From Nocardioides alcanivorans (GTDB taxonomy: Bacteria; Actinomycetota; Actinomycetes; Propionibacteriales; Nocardioidaceae), in NCBI RefSeq assembly GCF_021555175.1, contig NZ_JAKGRW010000006.1, forward strand, positions 124,001 through 188,000: a stretch of DNA of 64,000 nt. The letters are read 5' to 3'. The notes beneath the pieces were generated by a model, which saw only the letters and a list, made by a program, of their open reading frames with translations, did not search any database and was not told the origin of the DNA. Below, in pieces: positions 14,458 through 29,560 of the stretch. Position 1 is the first letter of the stretch; every line of letters begins with the position of its first letter. Position numbers and translations under genes: made by a program.

Positions 14458-15452
14458 ATGGTCGAGGTACTGCGTCGGCGCCGTGGCACGCTCTCGCTGA
14501 CGGGTTTCGTGGTCTGCTTGGCGCTGCTCCTGAGCAGTTGTTTCCTGGGCACTGCGGCGGGGCCGATCCGCAAGGGAGAGCTTGCCGGTCCGGTGGCGGA
14601 CACCAAGCCTCTGGACGACCTGGAGATCGCCGTGGGCTCCAAGAACTTCAGTGAGAACATCATCCTCGGCAAGATCGCCGTCACCCTGCTTGCGTCGGCC
14701 GGCGCCGACGTCACCGACCTCACGAACATCCCGGGAAGTGCGGCCGCGCGACAGGCCCAGATCGAGGGACAGATCGATGCCATGTGGGAATACACCGGCA
14801 CCGGTTGGATCACCTACCTCGGTCACACGGATCCGATTCCTGACGAGGAGAAGCAGTACGTCGCGGTGCGCGACGAGGACCTGGAGAAGAACGGCCTCGT
14901 CTGGCTGCCACCGGCGCCGATGAACAACACCTACGGTTTCGCGATGACCCAGGAGGTCAGTGATCGGCTGGGCATCACCAAGCTCTCAGAGTTGCAGGAC
15001 GTCCCGGTCAAGGAACGCACCTTCTGCGTCGAGTCGGAGTTCACCAACCGACCCGACGGTCTGCCGGGGATGTTGAAGACCTATGACATCCCCCTGGGCA
15101 AGGAGGTCCCGCAGGCAAACCTGAAGACCTATCAGACCGGAGCGGTCTACAGCGCGACGGCGAAGGGGAGTGCAACTTCGGCGAGGTCTTCACCACTGAC
15201 GGTCGCATCGTCGCACTCGACCTCACCGTCCTCGAGGACGACCGTGAGTACTTCCCGAAGTACAACGTCGCCCTCGTGGTCAACGAAGGCATCGTCGAGG
15301 ACCACCCACAGATCAAGGATCTCTTCGCCCCGGTCACCGCGAAGCTGACCGACGACGTGCTGCTGCAGCTCAACGCCAAGGTCGACGTCGACGGGCTGGA
15401 ACCCGTGGACGTCGCCTATGACTGGCTCAAGGATGAGGGCTTCATCGAGTGA
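14458..15452 (+). CDS. Osmoprotectant-binding lipoprotein (OpuCC-like; one missing base)
   Basis: Substrate-binding lipoprotein of the importer. A signal peptide ends in the lipobox LLSSC near residue 24. The mature part begins with the family segment LEIAVGSKNFSENIILGKIA and includes the aromatic-cage region GQIDAMWEYTGTGWITYLG. After TGAVYSATAKG the frame breaks; one extra G in the GGGG run at 15165-15168 continues as ECNFGEVFTTDGRIVALDL through to VDVAYDWLKDEGFIE, giving 331 residues of normal family form. It follows permease 2 by one base and closes the operon. Confidence 0.88.
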
Positions 15453-15548: not shown

Positions 15549-16385
15549 ATGAACGAGTTCGAGGGCAAGGTCGCCCTGATCACCGGTGGCGCCAGGGGAC
15601 AGGGTCGAGCGCACGCGGTGGCGTTCGCTGAGCGGGGAGCAGATGTGGTGATCTGCGACCGTTGCGAGGACAGCCCGAGCGTGTTCTACCCACTCGCGAC
15701 CGAGGAGGACCTGGCGGAGACCGCCCGGTTGGTCGAGGCCGCCGGCGGACGTTGCATCGCCGCCAAGGTCGACACCGCGGACCGGCCCGCGATGGATGCT
15801 CTCGTGGCCCGTGCCGAGTCGGAGTTCGGCAAGGTCGACATCGCCGTTGCCAACGCAGGTGTCTCGGTCGCGGCCCCGGTGCAGTCGATGACGTCGGCTC
15901 AGTGGTCGGAGGTCATCAACTCGAACCTGACCGGTGTGTTCAACACGGTCGGTGCGGTTGCGCCCGGCATGATCGAGCGGCGTTACGGTCGGATCGTCAC
16001 GATCTCGTCGATGCTCGGGCGGGCCGGCAGCACCAACATGGCTGCCTACAGCGCTTCCAAGTGGGGTGTGATCGGCATGACGAAGAGTTCCGCACTCGAC
16101 CTCGCGCAGTTCGGCATCACGGCGAACGCGATCGCTCCGGGAAACATCTCGACCCCGATGATCCACAACGACGCGCTCTACTCGCTGATGCGTCCCGACC
16201 TCGAGAGCCCCGCCGCCGATGACGTGGCGCCCGTCTTCGAGAGCCTTCACGCTCAGCCGGTTCCGTGGCTCGAGCCCTTCGAGATCACCCGTGCGGTGCT
16301 GTTCTTCGCAGCTGAGGCCAGCGCGCACATCAGCGGCACGGTGCTGCCGATCGATGCGGGCAACGCCGCTCGCGTCTCCGGCTGA
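15549..16385 (+). CDS. Mycofactocin-coupled SDR-family oxidoreductase
   Basis: Short-chain dehydrogenase of the TIGR03971-like group, whose tightly held NAD is thought to be recycled by the peptide-derived redox carrier mycofactocin. The N-terminal TGGARGQGRAHAV Rossmann motif is followed by the diagnostic insertion containing YPLATEEDLAETARLVEA; the catalytic YSASK lies near residue 159, and the length (278) fits. AAGGAG precedes the ATG. It lies alone ahead of the sulfotransferase cluster, separated by a strong terminator and two opposing genes. No mycofactocin biosynthesis gene is in the window. The alcohol substrate is unknown. Confidence 0.88.
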   Translation: MNEFEGKVALITGGARGQGRAHAVAFAERGADVVICDRCEDSPSVFYPLATEEDLAETARLVEAAGGRCIAAKVDTADRPAMDALVARAESEFGKVDIAVANAGVSVAAPVQSMTSAQWSEVINSNLTGVFNTVGAVAPGMIERRYGRIVTISSMLGRAGSTNMAAYSASKWGVIGMTKSSALDLAQFGITANAIAPGNISTPMIHNDALYSLMRPDLESPAADDVAPVFESLHAQPVPWLEPFEITRAVLFFAAEASAHISGTVLPIDAGNAARVSG

Positions 16386-16407
16386 CGACGCGCCCCGCTC
16401 GACGAAC

Positions 16408-16446
16408 GACGCCGCCCGGACTGCTGATGGCAGTCCGGGCGGCGTC
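16408..16446. terminator. Strong bidirectional terminator hairpin
   Basis: A perfect 16-bp inverted repeat (GACGCCGCCCGGACTG and its complement), extendable by one more C-G pair, flanks a short TGATG loop. It sits between the convergent SDR and SnoaL-like genes, as expected for a shared terminator. Confidence 0.85.
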
Positions 16447-16474
16447 GGCGTTTCTCCAGGGATCCGTCTCCTGC

Positions 16475-16906
16475 TCAGTCGAGGCGGGCCTTGAGGTCAG
16501 GAAGGGCGGTGATGGACACGATCTTGCAATCGTCGTCGAACTCGAACAGGTCCATGGAGGCGAAGTCAGGCATGCCCTTCACGTCCACCCGCATCTGCAT
16601 GGCGGCGTAGTTGCCGACAACGGTGACGGGCGTCGAAAGGCTCACGGTGAACGGCGTCCGCTCACTCTCGGCGAAGAAGGCGCGAATCTCGTCGCGACCG
16701 CGGTTGGTACGAACCCCGACGGGCTCGTGCTGGACCGCATCCTCGGCGAAGAGCTCGGCGAGGGCATCGGTCTGGTGATCGGCGAGCAACCTGACATAGG
16801 TCTCGACGGCGTTGCAGATCTGGGCGCGGGTGGGCTTGGTGGAGTCACGTTCGGGCGCGGTGCTCGGTGCCAGGAGCGTGTGGATGTCTTGCGGGTTCTG
16901 GGTCAT
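16475..16906 (-). CDS. SnoaL-like / nuclear-transport-factor-2-fold protein
   Basis: Small alpha+beta-barrel protein of 143 residues. The segment NAVETYVRLLADHQTDALAE, followed by LFAEDAVQHEPVG and a C-terminal FEFDDDCKIVSITAL, is typical of SnoaL/ketosteroid-isomerase-like folds that act as isomerases, cyclases or hydratases, or merely bind ligand. ATG 16906 has AAGGAG seven bases upstream; the longer upstream frame lacks such a site. It lies 31 bp after the TetR gene on the same strand and is probably co-transcribed with it, so it likely belongs to the adjacent catabolic cluster. Confidence 0.8.
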   Translation of the reverse strand: MTQNPQDIHTLLAPSTAPERDSTKPTRAQICNAVETYVRLLADHQTDALAELFAEDAVQHEPVGVRTNRGRDEIRAFFAESERTPFTVSLSTPVTVVGNYAAMQMRVDVKGMPDFASMDLFEFDDDCKIVSITALPDLKARLD

Positions 16907-16937
16907 TGCTGACTCCTTCGCGACGGGGATGGTGGGG

Positions 16938-17549
16938 TCATTCGGTGATGGCGCGTGCCAGGGATTCGGCGGAATACTTGATGAGTGCATCCGGCTTGAC
17001 TCCGCGGGCCCACTTGTTGACCAGGGTGTCGGCCAGTCCCATGAGGCCGGACCAGACGAACGGCAGCAGAGCGGGGTCGGTGCGCAGCTGCCTGCCTTCG
17101 GCGGCCGCGGCGTCCTCGAGTGCTCGGAGAAGTTCCGAGAACTGACGATCGGTCGACTCGCTCAACGCCCGGATGGAAGCACGTTCGCTGAGGTTCCCGT
17201 CGCTGTCTCGCCAACTCGCGGCCAGGTGTCCGACGCGGCTCCACTGCCGTGTGGTCTCGGGGACCACCGCGCTCAGCAGGGCTGCGACGCCGTCCTCGCG
17301 GGGCAGCGCGCGGACGAACTCGGTGAGCTCCTCCTGGCTCTCCTGCAGGAGGGCGACATAGATGTCCTGCTTGTCGACGAAGTACTGGTAGATCAAGCCG
17401 GTACTGATATTGGCGCGCTTGGCCACCGCGCGGTTCGTCAGCGCGGCGTATCCGCCTTCGTCGAGCAGCTCTGCGGCGGCGTCCAGCACGCTGCGCCGAC
17501 GCGCCTCAGCATCGCCGTAGATCGAGCCGGTGCCGTTTGTTGTGCTCAT
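16938..17549 (-). CDS. TetR-family repressor of the sulfotransferase cluster
   Basis: TetR-family regulator, 203 residues. The N-terminal DNA-binding domain contains VLDAAAELLDEGGYAAL, NRAVAKRANISTGLIYQYF and VDKQDIY, a textbook helix-turn-helix. The C-terminal ligand domain is divergent and gives no hint of ligand. ATG 17549 is preferred over one 30 bp upstream because the domain begins soon after it. The gene diverges from an SDR gene across an 80-bp gap holding two perfect 19-bp palindromes, so it very likely represses both directions until an intermediate of the pathway binds. Confidence 0.9.
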   Translation of the reverse strand: MSTTNGTGSIYGDAEARRRSVLDAAAELLDEGGYAALTNRAVAKRANISTGLIYQYFVDKQDIYVALLQESQEELTEFVRALPREDGVAALLSAVVPETTRQWSRVGHLAASWRDSDGNLSERASIRALSESTDRQFSELLRALEDAAAAEGRQLRTDPALLPFVWSGLMGLADTLVNKWARGVKPDALIKYSAESLARAITE

Positions 17550-17569
17550 GGGACGTGACCCTAGCGATG

Positions 17570-17610
17570 GATTGACCACTGGTCAATCTAGGATTGACCA
17601 GTGGTCAATC
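17570..17610. promoter_or_regulatory. Duplicated TetR operator
   Basis: Two 19-bp palindromes, GATTGACCA-C-TGGTCAATC (17570-17588) and GATTGACCA-G-TGGTCAATC (17592-17610), are separated by TAG; each is the reverse complement of the other. Their centres are 22 bp apart, two helical turns, so two repressor dimers would sit on the same DNA face between the divergent TetR and SDR genes. Confidence 0.88.
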
Positions 17611-17629
17611 TGTCTCTACAGTCGCCTCC

Positions 17630-18397
17630 ATGAGTTCTCAGAAGCGGAACAACGCGGTGACCTACGACTTCTCGAAGACCAGCGTCCTGGTGACGGGAGG
17701 GTCGAATGGACTGGGCCTGGCAATCGCGCAGGGCTTCGTCGCGGCCGGTGCGTCGGTGACGATCACCGGCACCCGCGCCGACGCCGCTGCCTACGACCAC
17801 GACCTCTCCGCCCTCGACTACCGGCAGTGCGTGATGACTGATCGTGACCAGATCGAGGAGGTTGCCACGGGTCTTCCGTCGCTGGACGTCCTGGTCAACA
17901 ACGCGGGTCAGACCCTGACACACAAGGGGGAGTGGAACCCTGACGTCTTCGAGGAATCGCTGACGGTCAACCTGACGAGCGGCTTCCGCATGGCAAGTGC
18001 CTGCCTGCCCTTGCTGCGGCGCAGCGAGCTCGACGGCGGCGCCGCCGTCGTGAACGTCGCCTCGATGGCCAGCTTCTTCGCAGTTGGCATGGTGCCGGGC
18101 TACGGCGCCTCGAAGGCGGGCATCGTGCAGATGACCAAGACGATGGGCGCTGAGTGGGCACGCAAGAACGTGCGGGTCAACGCGATCGCGCCGGGGCTGA
18201 CGGCGACCAACATGACGTCGGCCCTGCAGGCACACCCCGAATACAGCAAGCCGTCGATCGACCGTACGCCGGCCGGTCGGTGGGCGGATCCGGCCACCGA
18301 CGTTGCACCGGTGGCGTTGTTCCTGGCGAGCCCTGCTGCACGTTTCGTCACGGGGCAGACCTTGCCCGTCGACGGTGGCTACTCGATCCAGGGTTGA
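17630..18397 (+). CDS. SDR-family NAD(P)-dependent oxidoreductase
   Basis: Classical short-chain dehydrogenase/reductase of 255 residues. It has the TGGSNGLGLA cofactor motif near residue 22, NNAG, a catalytic Ser in NVASMASF and YGASK, and the usual PVDGGYS end. The start at ATG 17630 is 20 bp from the nearest operator palindrome, so the promoter must overlap the operators. It is the first gene of a run with a sulfotransferase (5 bp gap), an alkylsulfatase-like protein and an OYE flavoenzyme, and probably oxidises or reduces an alcohol/ketone in the same pathway. The substrate is unknown. Confidence 0.88.
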   Translation: MSSQKRNNAVTYDFSKTSVLVTGGSNGLGLAIAQGFVAAGASVTITGTRADAAAYDHDLSALDYRQCVMTDRDQIEEVATGLPSLDVLVNNAGQTLTHKGEWNPDVFEESLTVNLTSGFRMASACLPLLRRSELDGGAAVVNVASMASFFAVGMVPGYGASKAGIVQMTKTMGAEWARKNVRVNAIAPGLTATNMTSALQAHPEYSKPSIDRTPAGRWADPATDVAPVALFLASPAARFVTGQTLPVDGGYSIQG

Positions 18398-18402
18398 GCG
18401 CC

Positions 18403-19671
18403 ATGACCTCCGAGGCCTCGCAGCTGCTGCGGGTCACCGACCTGCGCGACCCCGTTCTCTCCGACGTGCAGCGTCACACCCTCGCGTATGCCGAGGCGAA
18501 CCCGGTCGAGCTGAGTGTCGAGAGCGTGCTTGCCGCGGCCCGGCACGAGACTGGCCTCGACGACTTCGGGCCAGATGACTTCCACGAGCGACTTGCCCTG
18601 CAGCTGGACGAGATCGACGCAGATCCCCATCGGTCCGCGGTGGCACGGCTCGTGACCTTCGGCAACAGTGTCCGCTACGCGGTCAACCGACTGAGGGTGA
18701 TGGACCTGCTGCGCAGACACCCTGAGATCCACGACGTCGAGATCGCGGCTCCGGTCGTCGTGGTCGGCCTGCCCCGTTCGGGCACCACACACCTGGTCAA
18801 CCTGTTGGCAGCAGACAAGCGTTTCCGTTCGCTCCCGTTGTGGGAGAGCCAGGAGCCGGTCCCGCGGCCCGAGGACGAGATGGACACCGATGGGCCGGAC
18901 CCACGGATCGCTCGCTCGCAACGCAGGTGGGACCACATGAAGGCATCGAGCCCGGTCCTCGCCGCGATGCATCCGATGAACCCGGACCACATCCACGAAG
19001 AGCTCGAGCTGGAGTGCCTCGACTTCTCCAGCTACAACTTCGAGTGGGCGTCAACGATGGCGCCACGATGGCGCGACTACTACCTCGCCCACGACCAGCG
19101 GCCGCACTACGAGTTCCTGGCCACCATGCTGAAGGTCCTGCAGTGGCAGCGTGGTCCGAACCGCTGGATCCTCAAGTGCCCTCAGCACCTCGAGCAGCTC
19201 GGTCCCTTGATGGAGACCTTCCCGGACGCCACGGTGGTGATGACCCATCGCGATCCCGTCTCGGTGGTGCAGTCGGCCGCGACCATGTCGGCCTATGGCG
19301 CGCGCGCGAACTTCAAGCGAGTCGACGTCGATGCGATCTTCGACTACTGGGCCGACCGGGTAGCCAGGTTGCTCGAGGCCGGCACCAGGGACCTGCCGAG
19401 GATTCCGGCCGGCCGTCGTGTCGACGTCTTCTTCCACGAGTTCATGGCCGACGACATCGGCACCGTGGAGCGCATCTATGCGCGGATCGGGATCGACTTC
19501 ACCGAAGAGGCTCGCGCCAGTGTCGCCGAACACCTCGAGCGTCATCCGCGTGGAGCCGACGGCCAGGTCGTCTACGACCTGCGCGCCGACTTCGGCCGTG
19601 AACCCGACGAGCTGCGTGCTCGATTTGCCCCGTACCTCGAGATGTTTCCCGTGAAGGTGGAAGTCCAGTGA
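18403..19671 (+). CDS. Sulfotransferase-family protein
   Basis: PAPS-dependent sulfotransferase-like protein of 422 residues. The 5'-phosphosulfate loop GLPRSGTTHLVNLL lies near residues 126-139 and a 3'-phosphate-binding segment, VMTHRDPVSVVQS, near 280; the family (Sulfotransfer_3-like) transfers sulfate to hydroxyl groups of lipids, carbohydrates or small molecules. It follows the SDR by 5 bp, and its TGA overlaps the GTG start of the alkylsulfatase-like gene, so the two are translationally coupled. The pairing of a sulfate-adding and a sulfate-removing type of enzyme in one operon is unusual. Confidence 0.88.
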   Translation: MTSEASQLLRVTDLRDPVLSDVQRHTLAYAEANPVELSVESVLAAARHETGLDDFGPDDFHERLALQLDEIDADPHRSAVARLVTFGNSVRYAVNRLRVMDLLRRHPEIHDVEIAAPVVVVGLPRSGTTHLVNLLAADKRFRSLPLWESQEPVPRPEDEMDTDGPDPRIARSQRRWDHMKASSPVLAAMHPMNPDHIHEELELECLDFSSYNFEWASTMAPRWRDYYLAHDQRPHYEFLATMLKVLQWQRGPNRWILKCPQHLEQLGPLMETFPDATVVMTHRDPVSVVQSAATMSAYGARANFKRVDVDAIFDYWADRVARLLEAGTRDLPRIPAGRRVDVFFHEFMADDIGTVERIYARIGIDFTEEARASVAEHLERHPRGADGQVVYDLRADFGREPDELRARFAPYLEMFPVKVEVQ

Positions 19672-20950
19672 GTCCCGTCTCTGCAGAACAGGTCGACGAG
19701 TTCATCAGGAACCGTCCCGGCAAGGTGCTGCTCGACCACGTCTACGCAGACGAGGCCGTCGCCATCAACGACTTCATCCACATGTCGCCGGGGTCGAGCG
19801 CCGCCTACATGCTGGTCACCCCGGCAGGACGGGTGATCGTCAACACCGGGCTCGGCTACGAGGCTCCGCACCATCGCAAGCTGTTCGACGAGGTCTACGC
19901 GGGCCCCACCCGCTACATCGTCACGACGCAGGGTCACACCGATCACGTCGGCGGCGTTGCGGGCTTCCGAGAGCCGGGCGCGCTCTACGTGGCGAACTCC
20001 CTCAACCCGTCCGTTCAGCGCGACGACGCCCGCGTGATCACGAGGATGCGGCAGTGGGCACCGGTGTGGTTCGGTGTCGATGTCGACACCGTGCGCGGCT
20101 TCAGTCAGGCGCGCCCCGACGTGGCGAACAAGCAGGACGTGCCCACTCCCGACCTGATGTTCGACGATCGCCTTGCGCTGGACGTCGGTGGGCTGCAGAT
20201 CGAGCTCCACTCCGGTGTGGGCGAGACCGTGGACGGGGCAATGGTCTGGTTGCCGCAACACCGCATCGCGCTGATCAGCAATCTGCTGGGTCCGTTGTTC
20301 GGACACTTCCCCAACCTGAACACGATTCGTGGGCAGCGCTATCGCTACGTCGAGCCCTACCTCGCCACGATCACCAAGCTCCGGGACCTACGGCCCCAGC
20401 TGCTGATCACTGGCCGCGGTGTTCCCGTGGAGGGTGAGGAGATCATCGACGCCGTCCTCAAGCGGATGTACGACGCCGTCGACCACATCCACCGCGCGAC
20501 CCTGGACGGCATCAACGCGGGCAAGGACGTGGAGACGCTCGTTCGAGAGGTCACGTTGCCCGACCATCTCTACGTCGGCCAGGGCTACGGCCAGGTCAAG
20601 TGGGGGTGCGGACGATCTGGGAGACCTACCTGGGGTGGTTCCACCACCGCGCCACCTCGGAGCTGCACGCCGTACCGCGGGAGCAGACCCTCGCCAGCCT
20701 GGTCTCGATCGCGGGAGTGGACGGCGTGCTCGATCGTGCGCGCAGGCACCTCGCGCAGGGTCAGGCCGAGGAGGCGACTGCCCTGGTCGAGGCAGTGCTG
20801 GCCCACACGCCCGAGCATGCCGCCGGGACGGCCCTTCTCGTCGACTGTCACCAGGCGCTGCTCGCGGACCCGGTGACGGCAGAGAACTTCTGGGAGTCGG
20901 GCTGGCTGCGGCATCGCATCGGCGTCCTCGAAGGGCGGAACGGCAACTGA
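19668..20950 (+). CDS. Alkylsulfatase-like MBL-fold protein with altered metal ligands (one missing base)
   Basis: Related to SdsA1-type alkyl sulfatases: an N-terminal metallo-beta-lactamase domain and a C-terminal helical part (GWFHHRATSELHAVP, GVDGVLDRARRHLAQGQ) matching the alkylsulfatase dimerisation domain; the usual SCP2 domain is absent. The HxHxDH motif reads TQGHTDH, so the first His is Gln, and the later AE and SHHWP ligand segments appear as ISN and TGRGVP. It may have lost or changed its hydrolase chemistry. The frame breaks after QVKWG; one more G in the run 20602-20606 restores 427 residues. GTG start overlaps the sulfotransferase stop. Confidence 0.82.
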
Positions 20951-20999
20951 ACAGTCATCGCACGCACATGATCCGCACGGCACGTCCACAGGGAGAGCA

Positions 21000-22184
21000 A
21001 TGATCACCGACTCCGGAACCACCGTCCCCGATGCGTTCGCCCCGGCCCAGCTCGGGCCGGTGACCCTGCGCAACCGCATCATCAAGTCAGCGACCTTCGA
21101 GGGGCGGACCCCGAAGGGGCTGGTCACCGACGAGTTGATCGACTTCCATCGCCGTTTCGCATCAGGCGGCGTCGGGATGACGACGGTCGCCTACTGCGCC
21201 GTCGCTCCGGAAGGTCGTACGGCGCCGGGCCAACTGCAATGGACGGATGAGGCGATGCCGGGGCTACGACGTCTCACCGATGCCATGCACGCGGAGGGCG
21301 CTGCCGTCTCCGCGCAGATCGGACACGCCGGTCCGGTGGCGCCACCCAAGGCTCTCCGGATGCCTGCGTTGGCCGCGAGCCGACGGTTCCACCTCACGGG
21401 GCTGAACTTCGCCCAGGCGGCGTCCGCAGCAGACATCGTCCGGATAACGCAGGCCCACGTCAATGCGGCCCTCCGCGCAGCGGAGGCGGGATTCGATGCC
21501 ATCGAGATGCACTTCGGCCACGGCTACCTGATCAGTTCGTTCCTGAGCGAACGGCTCAACCACCGCACCGATTCCTACGGTGGCAGCCTCAGGAACCGGG
21601 CCCGGTTCGCACGCGAGACGGCCAGTGCTGTCCGTGATGCGGTGGGGGACCGGATCGCGATCCTGGCGAAGGTCAACATGGACGACGGCGTACCGGGCGG
21701 GTTCTGGCTCGCCGAGGCGATCCGGCTGGTCCGCTGGCTGGAGGAGGACGGGTCGCTGGACGCGGTGGTCCTCACGGCCGGGAGCTCTCTGGAGAACCCG
21801 CTCTACACGTTCCGTGGGGATGCGCCGCTGAAGGAGTTCGAAGCGGTGATGCCGCAGCCACAGAAGCTCGGCATCAAGATGGTGGGCAAGCACTTCCTGC
21901 GCACCTACCCCTACCAGGACACCTATCTGCTCGACCACGCACGCCAGGTTCGCGCGGCGGTCGACCTGCCACTGGTGCTGCTCGGCGGCGTCACCGGGCG
22001 GGAGTCGATCGAGCGGGCCATGACGGAGGGGTTCGAGTTCGTCGAGATGGGACGGGCACTGCTCAGCGATCCCGACCTGGTCAACGCCATCCAGGAGGAG
22101 GGAGTGGGTCAGTCATTGTGCATCCACTGCAACAAGTGCATGGTCACGATCTATCGGGGTACCCACTGCGTCCTGCGTCCCTGA
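21000..22184 (+). CDS. Old-yellow-enzyme-family NADH:flavin oxidoreductase
   Basis: FMN-dependent TIM-barrel ene-reductase or dienoyl-CoA-reductase-like enzyme, 394 residues. It shows the N-terminal LGPVTLRNRIIKSAT, the HGYLISSFLSERLNHRTDSYGGS core and the phosphate-binding end GRALLSDPDLV. A C-terminal CIHCNKC followed by GTHC suggests the 4Fe-4S motif found in larger family members, but the FAD/NAD domain that normally follows is missing. GGGAGAG precedes ATG 21000. It lies 49 bp after the MBL gene and probably reduces an activated double bond in the same pathway. The last 41 bp overlap the opposing GNAT gene. Confidence 0.85.
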   Translation: MITDSGTTVPDAFAPAQLGPVTLRNRIIKSATFEGRTPKGLVTDELIDFHRRFASGGVGMTTVAYCAVAPEGRTAPGQLQWTDEAMPGLRRLTDAMHAEGAAVSAQIGHAGPVAPPKALRMPALAASRRFHLTGLNFAQAASAADIVRITQAHVNAALRAAEAGFDAIEMHFGHGYLISSFLSERLNHRTDSYGGSLRNRARFARETASAVRDAVGDRIAILAKVNMDDGVPGGFWLAEAIRLVRWLEEDGSLDAVVLTAGSSLENPLYTFRGDAPLKEFEAVMPQPQKLGIKMVGKHFLRTYPYQDTYLLDHARQVRAAVDLPLVLLGGVTGRESIERAMTEGFEFVEMGRALLSDPDLVNAIQEEGVGQSLCIHCNKCMVTIYRGTHCVLRP

Positions 22185-22895: not shown

Positions 22896-25070
22896 ATGAC
22901 TGCCAACGAAGTCCGCAACGTGGCCATCACCGAGGTCCTCAACCGCTCGGGTGTGGAAACGGCAGAGATCCACCCGCTCAGTGAAACGTGGGCCTGCGAC
23001 GTCTTCAACCTGGCCAAGATGGAGGAGGCGCTCTCCAAGAACGCCTTCAAGGCCGTGAAGAAGACGGTCCAGACGGGTGAGCCCCTCGACCCGGCCACGG
23101 CCGACATCGTTGCCTCCGCCATGAAGCACTGGGCGATGGGCAAGGGCGCGAAGTTCTTCTCGCACGTGTTCTACCCGCTGACCAACATCACCGCGGAGAA
23201 GCACGACGGCTTCATCGTCACCAATGCCGACGGCAATGCGATCACCGAGTTCACCGGCAGCCTGCTGATCAAGGGTGAGCCGGACGGCTCGTCGTTCCCC
23301 AACGGCAGCTTGCGGATGACCAACGCTGCGCGCGGCTACACCGCGTGGGACCCCACCAGCCCCGCCTACATCATGCAGACCGCCAATGGCGCGACCCTGA
23401 TGATTCCGAGCGTCTTCATGTCCTGGACCGGTGAGGCGCTCGACAAGAAGATCCCGCTGCTGCGCTCCAACGCGGCGATGGACAAGGCTGCGCGTCGTGT
23501 GCTCACCCTGATGGGGGAGACGGACATCGCTCCGCTCAACGCGAGCTGTGGCCCCGAGCAGGAGTACTTCCTGGTCGACCAGCACTTCGCGGCCGCGCGT
23601 CCAGACCTGCTGCTCGCTGGTCGCACGCTCTTCGGCGCCGCGCCGGCCAAGGGCCAGGAGTTCGACGACCACTACTTCGGTGCCATCCCCGAGCGCGTGC
23701 AGATCTTCATGCAGGCCTTCGAGGACAAGCTCTACCGGCTCGGCATCCCGGCCAAGACCCACCACAACGAGGTGGCTCCGGGCCAGTTCGAGATCGCGCC
23801 GTACCACGAGGCCGCCAACGTCGCGGCCGACCACCAGCAGCTGCTGATGACGGTGATGAAGGCGACGGCTGCCGAGCACGGATTCCTCTGCCTGCTGCAC
23901 GAGAAGCCGTTCGCCGGCATCAACGGCTCCGGCAAGCACGTCAACTGGTCGGTCGGGAACTCCACTCAGGGCAACCTGCTCGATCCCGGCACTTCGCCGG
24001 AGCACAACCTCAACTTCCTGCTCTTCTGCGGTGCGGTGATCCGAGGTGTGCACAAGTTCGGCCCGCTGCTGCGCGCCGTCATCGCCACTGCCTCCAACGA
24101 CCACCGACTGGGCGCCAACGAGGCCCCGCCGGCGATCCTGTCGGTCTACCTCGGTGATCAGCTCGAGGCGGTCTTCGACGACATCAAGAACGGCAAGGTC
24201 TCGGTCTCCAGCGACGGTGGCGTGATGGATCTCGGTCTGTCGCAGATCCTCAACTTCAAGCGCGACCCGGGCGACCGCAACCGCACCTCGCCGTTCGCCT
24301 TCACCGGCAACCGTTTCGAGTTCCGGGCGGTCGGTTCCTCGCAGTCCGTCTCCGGGCCGCTCGTCGCGATGAACACGATGCTCGCCGACTCGCTCGGCTG
24401 GATCGCGGACAAGCTCGAGGCCGAGCTCGCCGCTGGAAACAGCAAGGTCAAGGCGGTCGCCACGGTGCTGCAGGAGCTCATGCAACTGCACGGCAACGCG
24501 ATCTTCGGCGGCGACGGTTACTCCGCCGAGTGGCACGAAGCGGCGGTCACCGAACGCGGCCTGCGCAACCTGCCGACCAGCGCCGACGCCCTGCCGGTCT
24601 TCACCGAGCCCGAGGTGGTGGAGCTCTTCGAGTCCACCGACGTACTGTCGGCCGTGGAGCTCAACGCTCGTTACGAGGTGTACGCCGAGCAGTACATCAA
24701 CTCGATCGCTGTCGAGGCCAAGCTGGTGATCGATCTGGCCAAGACGGTCATCTACCCGGCCGCACTGAAGTACGTCGCCGACCTCGCCCACACCTACACC
24801 GCCGTGGAGGCGCTGGGTGCGTCGTTCGACACCGGTCAGGTCAAGGTCATCACGGAGAACATGAACCGGCTGCTGGAAACGGTTGCCGAGCTGGCGACGG
24901 AACTGGACCGCCACGACTTCGCTGACACGAAGGCGCACATGGCGCACTCCGCCACCACCATCCGTGCGCTGATGGACCAGGCCCGCGTCCACGCGGACGC
25001 CCTCGAGTGCGAGGTGGATGACGCGGCCTGGCCGTTGCCGAAGTACCGCGAGATGCTGTTCATCAAGTAG
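22896..25070 (+). CDS. glnN: Type III glutamine synthetase (GlnN)
   Basis: ATP-dependent glutamate-ammonia ligase of the large GSIII class, 724 residues (family about 700-730). Recognisable parts are [13 protein letters not shown] (metal-binding glutamates), [47 protein letters not shown] and the [15 protein letters not shown] and [21 protein letters not shown] segments, all in order. Adenylylation is not known for this class. It lies 3 kb from a type I synthetase; both have GlnR-like boxes, so the pair probably share nitrogen control. A clear terminator hairpin follows. Confidence 0.95.
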
Positions 25071-28129: not shown

Positions 28130-29560
28130 TCAGATGTCGTAATAGAGCTCGAACTCGTGCGGGTGCGGGCGCTGCTGCACCGGCAGGATCTCGTTCTGGC
28201 GCTTGTAGTCGACCCAGGTCTCGATCAGGTCAGGGGTGAAGACGTTGCCGCGGGTGAGGTAGTCGTGGTCCTCCTCGAGCGCGATCATCACGTCTTCGAG
28301 GCGGGTCGGGACCTGCTCGATCTCGGCCATCTCCTCCGGCGGGAGCTCGTAGATGTCCTTGTCGATCGGCGCCGGCGGCTCGATCTTGTTCTGGATGCCG
28401 TCGATGCCGGCCAGCAGCAGTGCCGAGAAGGCGAGGTACGGGTTGGCCGATGGGTCAGGGCAGCGGAACTCGACGCGCTTGGCCTTCGGGTTCGCGCCGG
28501 TGATCGGGATGCGCATGCAGGCCGACCGGTTGCGCTGCGAGTAGACCAGCGAGATCGGGGCTTCGAAGCCGGGCACCAAACGGTGGTAGGAGTTAACCGT
28601 CGGGTTGGTGAAGGCCAACAGCGACGGGGCGTGCTTGAGGACTCCGCCGATGTAGTGACGCGCCATGTCGGACAGGCCCGCATAGCCGGTCTCGTCGTAG
28701 AACAGCGCCTCGCCGTCCTTCCAGATCGACTGGTGCACGTGCATGCCCGAGCCGTTGTCGCCGAAGATCGGCTTCGGCATGAAGGTTGCGGTCTTGCCGT
28801 TGCGCCACGCCGTGTTCTTGATGATGTACTTGAACTTCATCACGTCGTCGGCCGACCTGAGCAGTTCGTCGAACCGGTAGTTGATCTCGGCCTGGCCGGC
28901 GGTGCCGACCTCGGAGTGGGCGCGCTCGACCTGCAGGCCGACCTTCTCCAGCTCGACGACCATCTCGTCACGCAGCTCGCCGAAGTGGTCGTACGGCGCC
29001 ACCGGGAAGTAGCCGCCCTTGTACTTGACCTTGTAACCGCGGTTCGGGTTGTCCGAGGTGCCGGCCACGCCCGAGTTCCAGGCGCCCGCCTCGGAGTCGA
29101 TGTGGTAGAAGCCGGCGTTTGCCGAGGTCTCGAAACGCACCGAGTCGAAGACGTAGAACTCAGCTTCGGGAGCGAAGTAGGCCTTGTCACCGATACCGGT
29201 GCTGGCCATGTAGGCCATCGCCTTGCGGGCGATGTTGCGTGGGTCGCGGGAGTAGGCCTCGCCCGTGATCGGGTCGTGGATGAAGAAGTTGACGACCAGC
29301 GTCTTGGCCACCCGGAACGGGTCGAGGTAGGCGGTGGTGACGTCGGGGAAGAGCGACATGTCGGACTCGTGGATGGCCTGGAAGCCACGGATGGAGGAGC
29401 CGTCGAAGCTCAGTCCGTCGGTGAAGACGGACTCGTCGAAGGAAGAGACGGGCACGGTGAAGTGCTGCATCACGCCGGGCAGGTCGCAGAAACGGACGTC
29501 GATCATCTCGACGTTCTCGTCCTTGACGTAACGGAACAGCTCGTCGCTGTTGGCGAACAT
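28130..29560 (-). CDS. glnA: Type I glutamine synthetase (GlnA)
   Basis: Main ammonia-assimilating glutamine synthetase, 476 residues, forming dodecamers. The N-terminal beta-grasp ([37 protein letters not shown]), the [10 protein letters not shown] metal site, [10 protein letters not shown], the [10 protein letters not shown] substrate region and the adenylylation site IYELPPE with Tyr404 are all present, identifying the class regulated by GlnE. Upstream lies a complete two-part GlnR box. The 5' AGGAGGACGAA gives a good ribosome-binding site. The type III enzyme is encoded 3 kb away. Confidence 0.97.

Follow-up and report, generated by a model that had tools for sequence, protein, structure and literature searches.

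A sulfotransferase beside an altered alkylsulfatase-like protein: a conserved gene pair in Nocardioides alcanivorans and other bacteria, with sulfate as a possible internal leaving group

A stretch of 64,000 nucleotides from Nocardioides alcanivorans (assembly GCF_021555175.1, contig NZ_JAKGRW010000006.1, positions 124,001 to 188,000; hereafter the window) contains, at 15549-22184, a cluster in which the gene of a sulfotransferase (ST) overlaps that of an alkylsulfatase-like protein of the metallo-β-lactamase fold (MBL). The metal-binding motif of this MBL reads QxHxDH (Q-type). We consider it highly likely that the ST and the MBL form a functional couple. That the ST makes a sulfate ester which the MBL cleaves at the C–O bond, with redox steps by short-chain dehydrogenases (SDRs) and an old yellow enzyme (OYE)-family protein around it, is an evenly balanced proposal. 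More tentatively still, bacteria of several phyla may sulfate a hydroxyl group solely to expel it, in a catabolic inversion or dehydroxylation in which the QxHxDH MBL would be a new lyase or inverting hydrolase.

The linkage of the two genes is clearest in a class-wide control, in which 197 genomes of the class were searched with the dimerisation domain PF14863 alone and all 78 resulting places were inspected. Q-type MBLs account for 15 of these places, the window included, and all 15 adjoin an ST gene, either overlapping it or lying at most 751 bp away; an ST stands beside none of the other 63 in the available flank. The flanks extend at least 2.4 kb beyond the gene unless the contig ends sooner (L236, L240, L245, L169, L172, L175, L176, L178 and L193), and the ST profile, built from this family and used at E up to 1e-6, could miss very distant sulfotransferases. 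When the thirty best places were re-examined with wider flanks, again no ST was found. The 63 comprise canonical HxHxDH alkylsulfatases, an intermediate group of HGHxDH type, some places with no readable motif, and fragments: nine are fragments or weak matches in which the MBL model found nothing, one (L161/L253) has serine for the first histidine, nine (L156, L166, L168-L170, L174, L175, L178 and L219) yield no xHxDH motif by pattern, and at L138/L230 the motif is read only in a second frame. A bias from the motif itself was considered, one of the two patterns of the wider scan described below containing TQ[GD]H, but was rejected because the PF14863 survey ignores the motif; moreover, 59 of the 81 aligned sequences have valine at a site for which that pattern accepts Y, T or P, and were therefore retrieved by the other pattern. 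The second dimerisation-domain MBL of the N. alcanivorans genome (L179, G000:C4:123500-131500, G000 being the window's assembly) has the HGHxDH motif and no ST; it belongs to the intermediate group of short alkylsulfatase-like proteins (among L165-L179).

The wider MBL-family scan took one genome per species, and the best 80 of 208 relatives were used, 42 of these loci forming one mycobacterial clade at 75% identity. According to profile searches, an ST lies within 5 kb of the MBL in 69 of the 80 loci and within 1.5 kb in 63, and an SDR lies within 5 kb in 59; when counted by clade (29 at 75% identity), 22 have an ST, 22 an SDR and 19 both. In eight of the 11 loci without an ST the contig stops no more than 2.3 kb from the MBL on one side, and one of these eight, L066, shows the end of an ST. 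Besides Actinobacteria, the hosts include Steroidobacteraceae, Spongiibacteraceae, Myxococcota and other delta-type metagenome-assembled genomes. In the window's own family, four of 149 genomes have the MBL, in every case with one of the closest STs nearby. The pairwise distances of MBL and ST are correlated over 20 loci (r = 0.72, the highest value among 2000 permutations being 0.28), and so are those of MBL and SDR (r = 0.66; best permutation, 0.36).

Three Rhodococcus loci (L053-L055) preserve the order TetR|SDR2-ST-MBL-OYE at identities of 60-86% (55-70% for the C-terminal part of the MBL), and in Nocardia (L056 and L057), Nocardioides (L058) and Sphaerimonospora (L060) the SnoaL, TetR, SDR and MBL genes are grouped with a reversed ST. 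Because it recurs in other genomes, the arrangement reflects more than chance. Most neighbouring genes differ between lineages; the core is the ST and the special MBL, often with an SDR, and only some Actinobacteria add TetR, SnoaL and OYE to it. A preliminary description of this DNA, made from the sequence alone, had proposed a six-gene pathway, naming conservation of the neighbourhood in other genomes as a check and its absence from them as a ground for abandoning the idea. The neighbourhood is conserved, so that ground falls away, but the core is narrower than the six genes.

The pair is also found on plasmids. Plasmid pBSY17_1 of Sphingobium sp. RAC03 (L194) carries the series SDR, zinc-dependent alcohol dehydrogenase, MBL, ST and SDR in catabolic-looking surroundings of two VOC proteins, MaoC, AMP-ligases and TonB-receptor genes, and this cluster is a possible route to the substrate. 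A Novosphingobium plasmid likewise has an ST-MBL pair. The plasmid scan returned three records with distant relatives, and both of those examined (L194 and L195) have a QxHxDH MBL beside an ST. Among other variants, a mycobacterial locus (L083) reads ST-MBL-SDR-VOC-luciferase-like flavoenzyme, the last in place of the OYE, and a flavoenzyme gene of similar kind is close by in about 31 loci; an arylsulfatase-like gene lies near the module in Nocardia (L056, 1172-3583).

The window ST (18403-19671, plus strand) is a Sulfotransfer_3 protein (PF13469, 1.9e-38). Among 22 aligned sequences its PRSGTT- and THRDP-type segments are invariant or nearly so, with G122, P124, R125, G127, T128, T129, T281-P285 and S291 identical in all 22, and we take these segments to be the 5' and 3' phosphosulfate-binding motifs. 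Both the domain and the binding segments of sulfotransferases that depend on 3'-phosphoadenosine-5'-phosphosulfate (PAPS) are thus present, and the CysD, CysNC and CysQ-like genes within two Rhodococcus clusters are indirect evidence that sulfate would be transferred from PAPS. In Rhodococcus hoagii (L055), CysNC (1064.6 bits; cut-off, 715), CysD (540.7 bits; cut-off, 413) and an inositol-phosphatase-family protein are encoded between SnoaL and TetR. The last has its best match to CysQ, at 115.9 bits, below the cut-off of 228.8; CysQ is the phosphatase of 3'-phosphoadenosine-5'-phosphate (PAP). Rhodococcus globerulus (L053) has CysNC, CysD and CysQ-like genes as in L055, and L054 has only the end of an adenylylsulfate (APS) kinase. 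In another genome (G143), cysD-cysN directly precede MBL-SDR-ST, and cysD-cysN-cysC lie about 7 kb off in L076. No CysD-, CysNC- or CysQ-type gene was found in the window locus, where SnoaL and TetR are adjacent. Within the available stretch, cysD/cysN occur in three of the 80 loci and an APS-kinase end in one more; most of the others have none, so PAPS usually comes from a general supply.

A sister locus in the same assembly, on contig C18 (L045, 8788-14730), reads TetR2|CysD-CysNC-SnoaL2-SDR-ST2. Its TetR2 is 60% identical, its CysD is 86% identical to that of R. hoagii, and its CysNC is 67-90% identical over three pieces, the frame being broken. Its tandem palindrome resembles that of the window, and one half of it provides the single place in the assembly where TGAACANTGTTCA is matched exactly; the locus adjoins what reads as dnaK-grpE-dnaJ. 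The assembly (4.9 Mb) is 92% complete with 6.5% contamination, and the sister locus could in principle stem from a contaminant. Given the strict linkage of Q-type MBLs to STs, the CysD, CysNC and CysQ-like genes of two Rhodococcus clusters and the CysD-CysNC of C18, it is very likely that sulfation does take place and is tied to the MBL; the sulfated intermediate postulated in the preliminary description is strongly suggested by the PAPS-supply and PAP-removal genes of two Rhodococcus clusters. Of the STs in the window's family, the seven that rank next and have no MBL stand beside glycyl-tRNA synthetase or other unrelated genes, as judged by eye, and gave no lead to the substrate.

The MBL has both the MBL fold and the dimerisation domain of class III alkylsulfatases. 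It is encoded on the plus strand in an N-terminal part (19668-20600; Lactamase_B, PF00753), which contains the QxHxDH motif (Q88, H90, D92 and H93) and E186, and a C-terminal part in another frame (20600-20950; Alkyl_sulf_dimr, PF14863, 4.9e-11). The nearest solved relative by sequence, searched with the L032 copy, is SdsA1 (2cfu, 1e-24), and the AlphaFold model of the L055 MBL (433 residues, mean pLDDT 93.5) is closest to Pisa1 (2yhe; Z 30.3, 392 residues, rmsd 2.8). The end of this model corresponds to residues 519-543 in Pisa1, SdsAP and SdsA1, which run to about 630, and the Pfam scan of the window MBL pieces found no SCP2-like C-terminal domain. Metal-site residues were mapped onto SdsA1 through the sequence match, with the zinc ligands listed for SdsAP (PMC5426288). 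SdsA1 H171, D173, H174, E280, R312 and R317 are kept, and Q88, H90, D92, H93, E186, H213, R221 and R226 are invariant in all 81 aligned sequences. R312 and R317 are near the zinc loop in sequence and presumably contact sulfate. The HxHxDH binuclear zinc site with its bridging glutamate is absent from the 81 sequences.

In the proposed mechanism, an inducer, probably the substrate or a product, would free TetR from two palindromes ahead of SDR2, allowing SDR2, ST, MBL and OYE to be made. The ST would place sulfate from PAPS on a hydroxyl group of a hydrophobic molecule, turning it into a leaving group, and the MBL would bind the resulting sulfate ester and cleave its C–O bond with departure of the sulfate. 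Cleavage could end in the entry of water with inversion or in the loss of a proton to leave a C=C bond; the former is the course attributed to Pisa1, an inverting sec-alkylsulfatase, in two reports (PMC3920027, PMC3725421). The SDRs would oxidise the alcohol before or after sulfate loss, and the OYE, present in Rhodococcus and the window, would reduce an activated C=C bond, with the net result that a stubborn or wrongly oriented hydroxyl group is inverted or removed. That the ST and the MBL share one molecule, that the C–O bond is the one cleaved, the order of the steps, the binding by TetR and the catabolic direction are inferences; the gene set, its conservation, the linkage of Q-type MBL and ST, the PAPS genes, the operator pattern and the predicted fold are what was observed.

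Several observations weigh against this mechanism. At the metal site, SdsA1 H169 is replaced by glutamine and the bridging glutamate E299 by glycine or serine in all 81 MBLs, H344 is histidine in 65 and arginine in 16, including the window protein, and the residue aligned with SdsA1 H306 is proline; H213, invariant in the 81, is missing from the G143 copy (L031), which lies outside that set. With two of the seven SdsAP/SdsA1 zinc ligands lost and a third sometimes arginine, it is doubtful that the MBL hydrolyses its substrate by the established binuclear mechanism; it might be a binding protein or perform other chemistry. At the level of the loci, an SDR2-type gene is missing within 5 kb in 21 of the 80, some being cut by contig ends; three (L084, L088 and L106), with at least 2.8 kb on both sides, have an MBL and an SDR but no ST according to the ST model; the correlation between ST and SDR distances is only weak (r = 0.50, with 0.46 reached by permutation); the OYE lies outside the core; and the C18 sister locus has ST, SDR and SnoaL genes without an MBL.

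The alternative that survives best, although unlikely, is that the MBL, with little or no catalytic activity, serves as a binder that holds the sulfated compound or delivers it, for instance to the SDR or to export, the unit making a sulfated product or detoxifying an alcohol. The loss of two zinc ligands throughout and of a third in part of the alignment, together with the MBL-less sister locus, would fit such a role, but the invariance of H90, D92, H93 and E186 in all 81 sequences is unexpected for a dead enzyme, and the Sphingobium locus, among AMP-ligase, MaoC and TonB-receptor genes, looks catabolic. Moreover, GOB-type B3 β-lactamases with the same histidine-to-glutamine exchange at the matching position stay active (PMC10318434). 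The metal site of the MBL, although changed, is thus plausibly active.

It is improbable, and more so than a binding role, that the MBL hydrolyses another bond, such as that of a lactone, ester or thioester, exposing the hydroxyl group for the ST and never removing sulfate. Cleavage of other bonds is common among MBL relatives, the fold comparison also places a chlorothalonil dehalogenase and PqsE near the top, and the zinc site differs from that of sulfatases; nevertheless, the alkylsulfatase group is closest in both sequence and fold across both domains, and the two arginines (R312/R317) are kept.

The regulator bears on a third alternative. TetR (16938-17549, minus strand; PF00440, 1.4e-14) is 73% identical in L055, and the region between it and SDR2 contains two perfect 19-bp palindromes, missed in the preliminary description, at 17570-17588 and 17592-17610, the second 22 bp from the first. 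Both read GATTGACCA[C/G]TGGTCAATC, and their 15-bp core, TTGACCANTGGTCAA, occurs in the 4.9-Mb assembly only at these two sites, the reversed control giving 0. A tandem pair at the same position was read from the printed sequence in all seven related TetR-SDR2 intergenic regions inspected (L053-L058 and L060), one half being imperfect in some; the pair is of TTGACC type in L055 and of TTGAAC type in the other six. These palindromes are candidate operators, and TetR may bind both. With a search at E up to 1e-30, 21 candidates being scored per genome in the rows shown, such a TetR was found in only one of 149 genomes of the family, the window's own, in two copies, which suggests that the TetR-regulated trait was acquired. 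Autoregulation-type tandem operators of this kind, and matches of TetR to ScbR-type and KstR models, although far below the cut-offs, would suit a unit whose product is a sulfated signal or lipid, to which the divergent TetR responds and which the MBL switches off. We regard this as very unlikely: the regulator varies (TetR here and in Nocardia; helix-turn-helix, TetR and IclR around the Sphingobium locus) but the ST-MBL pair is constant, and no secretion or receptor gene was seen to recur across the neighbour clusters. A chance neighbourhood of common actinobacterial enzymes with no joint function, conceivable in that SDR, ST, MBL, OYE and TetR are all abundant families and most neighbours vary by lineage, is exceedingly improbable and was rejected on the PF14863 survey (15 of 15 against 0 of 63), and conservation from Actinobacteria to Sphingobium and Myxococcota and the PAPS genes in the cluster also speak against it.

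The window MBL gene is split over two frames that meet near 20600, a break that the preliminary description had not recorded; the R. hoagii MBL is a single open frame, 85% identical over the N-terminal part. Compared with that gene, the part ahead of the break has dN 0.09 and dS 0.70, and the part past it dN 0.18 and dS 1.01. Three further conserved genes of the assembly are also frame-broken, namely an OpuC-like gene, CysNC on C18 and MftC on C29. A pseudogene was accordingly set aside: given purifying selection on both sides of the break and the other broken genes, an assembly error is likelier than decay, though not proved. The OpuAC/OsmF-type binding protein gene (14458-15450) adjoins the cluster and appears to change frame at about 15100-15150, the protein seemingly continuing in another frame; the mycofactocin radical-SAM gene (G000:C29:72791-73812) is likewise divided between two frames, which again points to frame errors in the assembly.

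The TetR-divergent unit consists of SDR1, SnoaL and TetR on one side and SDR2, ST, MBL and OYE on the other. The proteins were assigned by Pfam/NCBIfam profile scan, which, with the coordinates, bore out the gene set, order and spacings first described: 5 bp between SDR2 and ST, a 4-bp overlap of ST and MBL, 49 bp between MBL and OYE, and 31 bp between TetR and SnoaL. SDR2 (17630-18397, plus strand; PF13561/PF00106) is a classical SDR in which N114, S145, Y158 and K162, presumably the catalytic four, are invariant in 23 of 23 aligned sequences. SDR1 (15549-16385, plus strand) scores 333.8 bits against TIGR03971 (cut-off, 300), and an MftC-type radical-SAM protein above its cut-off is encoded in the two pieces on C29. 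The mycofactocin-type assignment of SDR1 in the preliminary description therefore holds, but its placement merely outside the cluster does not, as the R. hoagii cluster includes a copy of 72% identity (L055, 1388-2278) on its TetR side, two genes beyond SnoaL. The SnoaL_2/NTF2-like small protein (16475-16906, minus strand; PF12680, 3.6e-14), for which a longer start at 16990 is possible, has homologues in the clusters L053-L058 and L060. The OYE-family FMN oxidoreductase (21000-22184, plus strand; Oxidored_FMN, PF00724, 3.1e-53), 80-86% identical in L053-L055, is neither the mycofactocin FadH/OYE 2 protein (TIGR03997, 204.6 bits against a cut-off of 793, the protein being shorter) nor BaiCD (170.2 bits against 825). 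None of the cluster genes passes a steroid-specific model, leaving a steroid substrate unproven; the Steroidobacteraceae among the matches make for a merely suggestive taxonomy in this respect. Downstream of the cluster lie a type III glutamine synthetase gene (22896-25070) and what reads as a second glutamine-synthetase gene (28130-29560).

Sulfation is usually viewed as an end point, in conjugation or signalling, and alkylsulfatases as enzymes that scavenge detergents from outside. A widely conserved sulfate-adding enzyme beside a re-tooled relative of sulfate removers points instead to sulfate as an internal leaving group. If true, this would be a new metabolic logic for the bacterial breakdown of hydroxylated compounds, would give a function to unassigned sulfotransferases of Mycobacterium and its relatives, and would provide an enzyme pair of potential value for biocatalysis. 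The preliminary description knew of no named pathway with this gene set, and no paper on the ST and Q-type MBL was found in the open-access literature, most subscription papers being outside its scope. All parts belong to known families; as far as searched, the Q-type MBL subgroup, its strict link to an ST and the dedicated PAPS supply are undescribed.

Four known systems place the pair in context. The structures 2zq5 and 2z6v, Sulfotransfer_3-like proteins deposited as uncharacterized, match the ST over nearly its whole length (1.6e-37 and 2.5e-33); their entry names carry no function, whereas the STs described here accompany a Q-type MBL. In bile acid 7-alpha-dehydroxylation by the Bai pathway, an SDR, an NTF2-fold protein and an OYE-type reductase jointly remove a hydroxyl group, and these three are shared with the window cluster; however, the Bai pathway lacks sulfation and the window cluster has no CoA ligase. 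In CurM of curacin biosynthesis and in the cyanobacterial olefin synthase, elimination is activated by a sulfotransferase fused in a polyketide synthase beside a thioesterase. In those systems sulfation prepares a hydroxyl group for departure, much as suggested for the window cluster, but they are biosynthetic, whereas the window ST is free-standing and has an MBL instead, with no polyketide synthase or thioesterase among the cluster genes. With SdsA1, SdsAP and Pisa1, finally, the Q-type MBL shares the fold of the MBL and dimerisation domains, the HxDH half-motif, E280 and R312/R317. It differs from them in having glutamine for the first histidine, no bridging glutamate and no SCP2-like third domain, in its length of mostly about 405-446 residues rather than about 630-670, and in standing beside a sulfotransferase.

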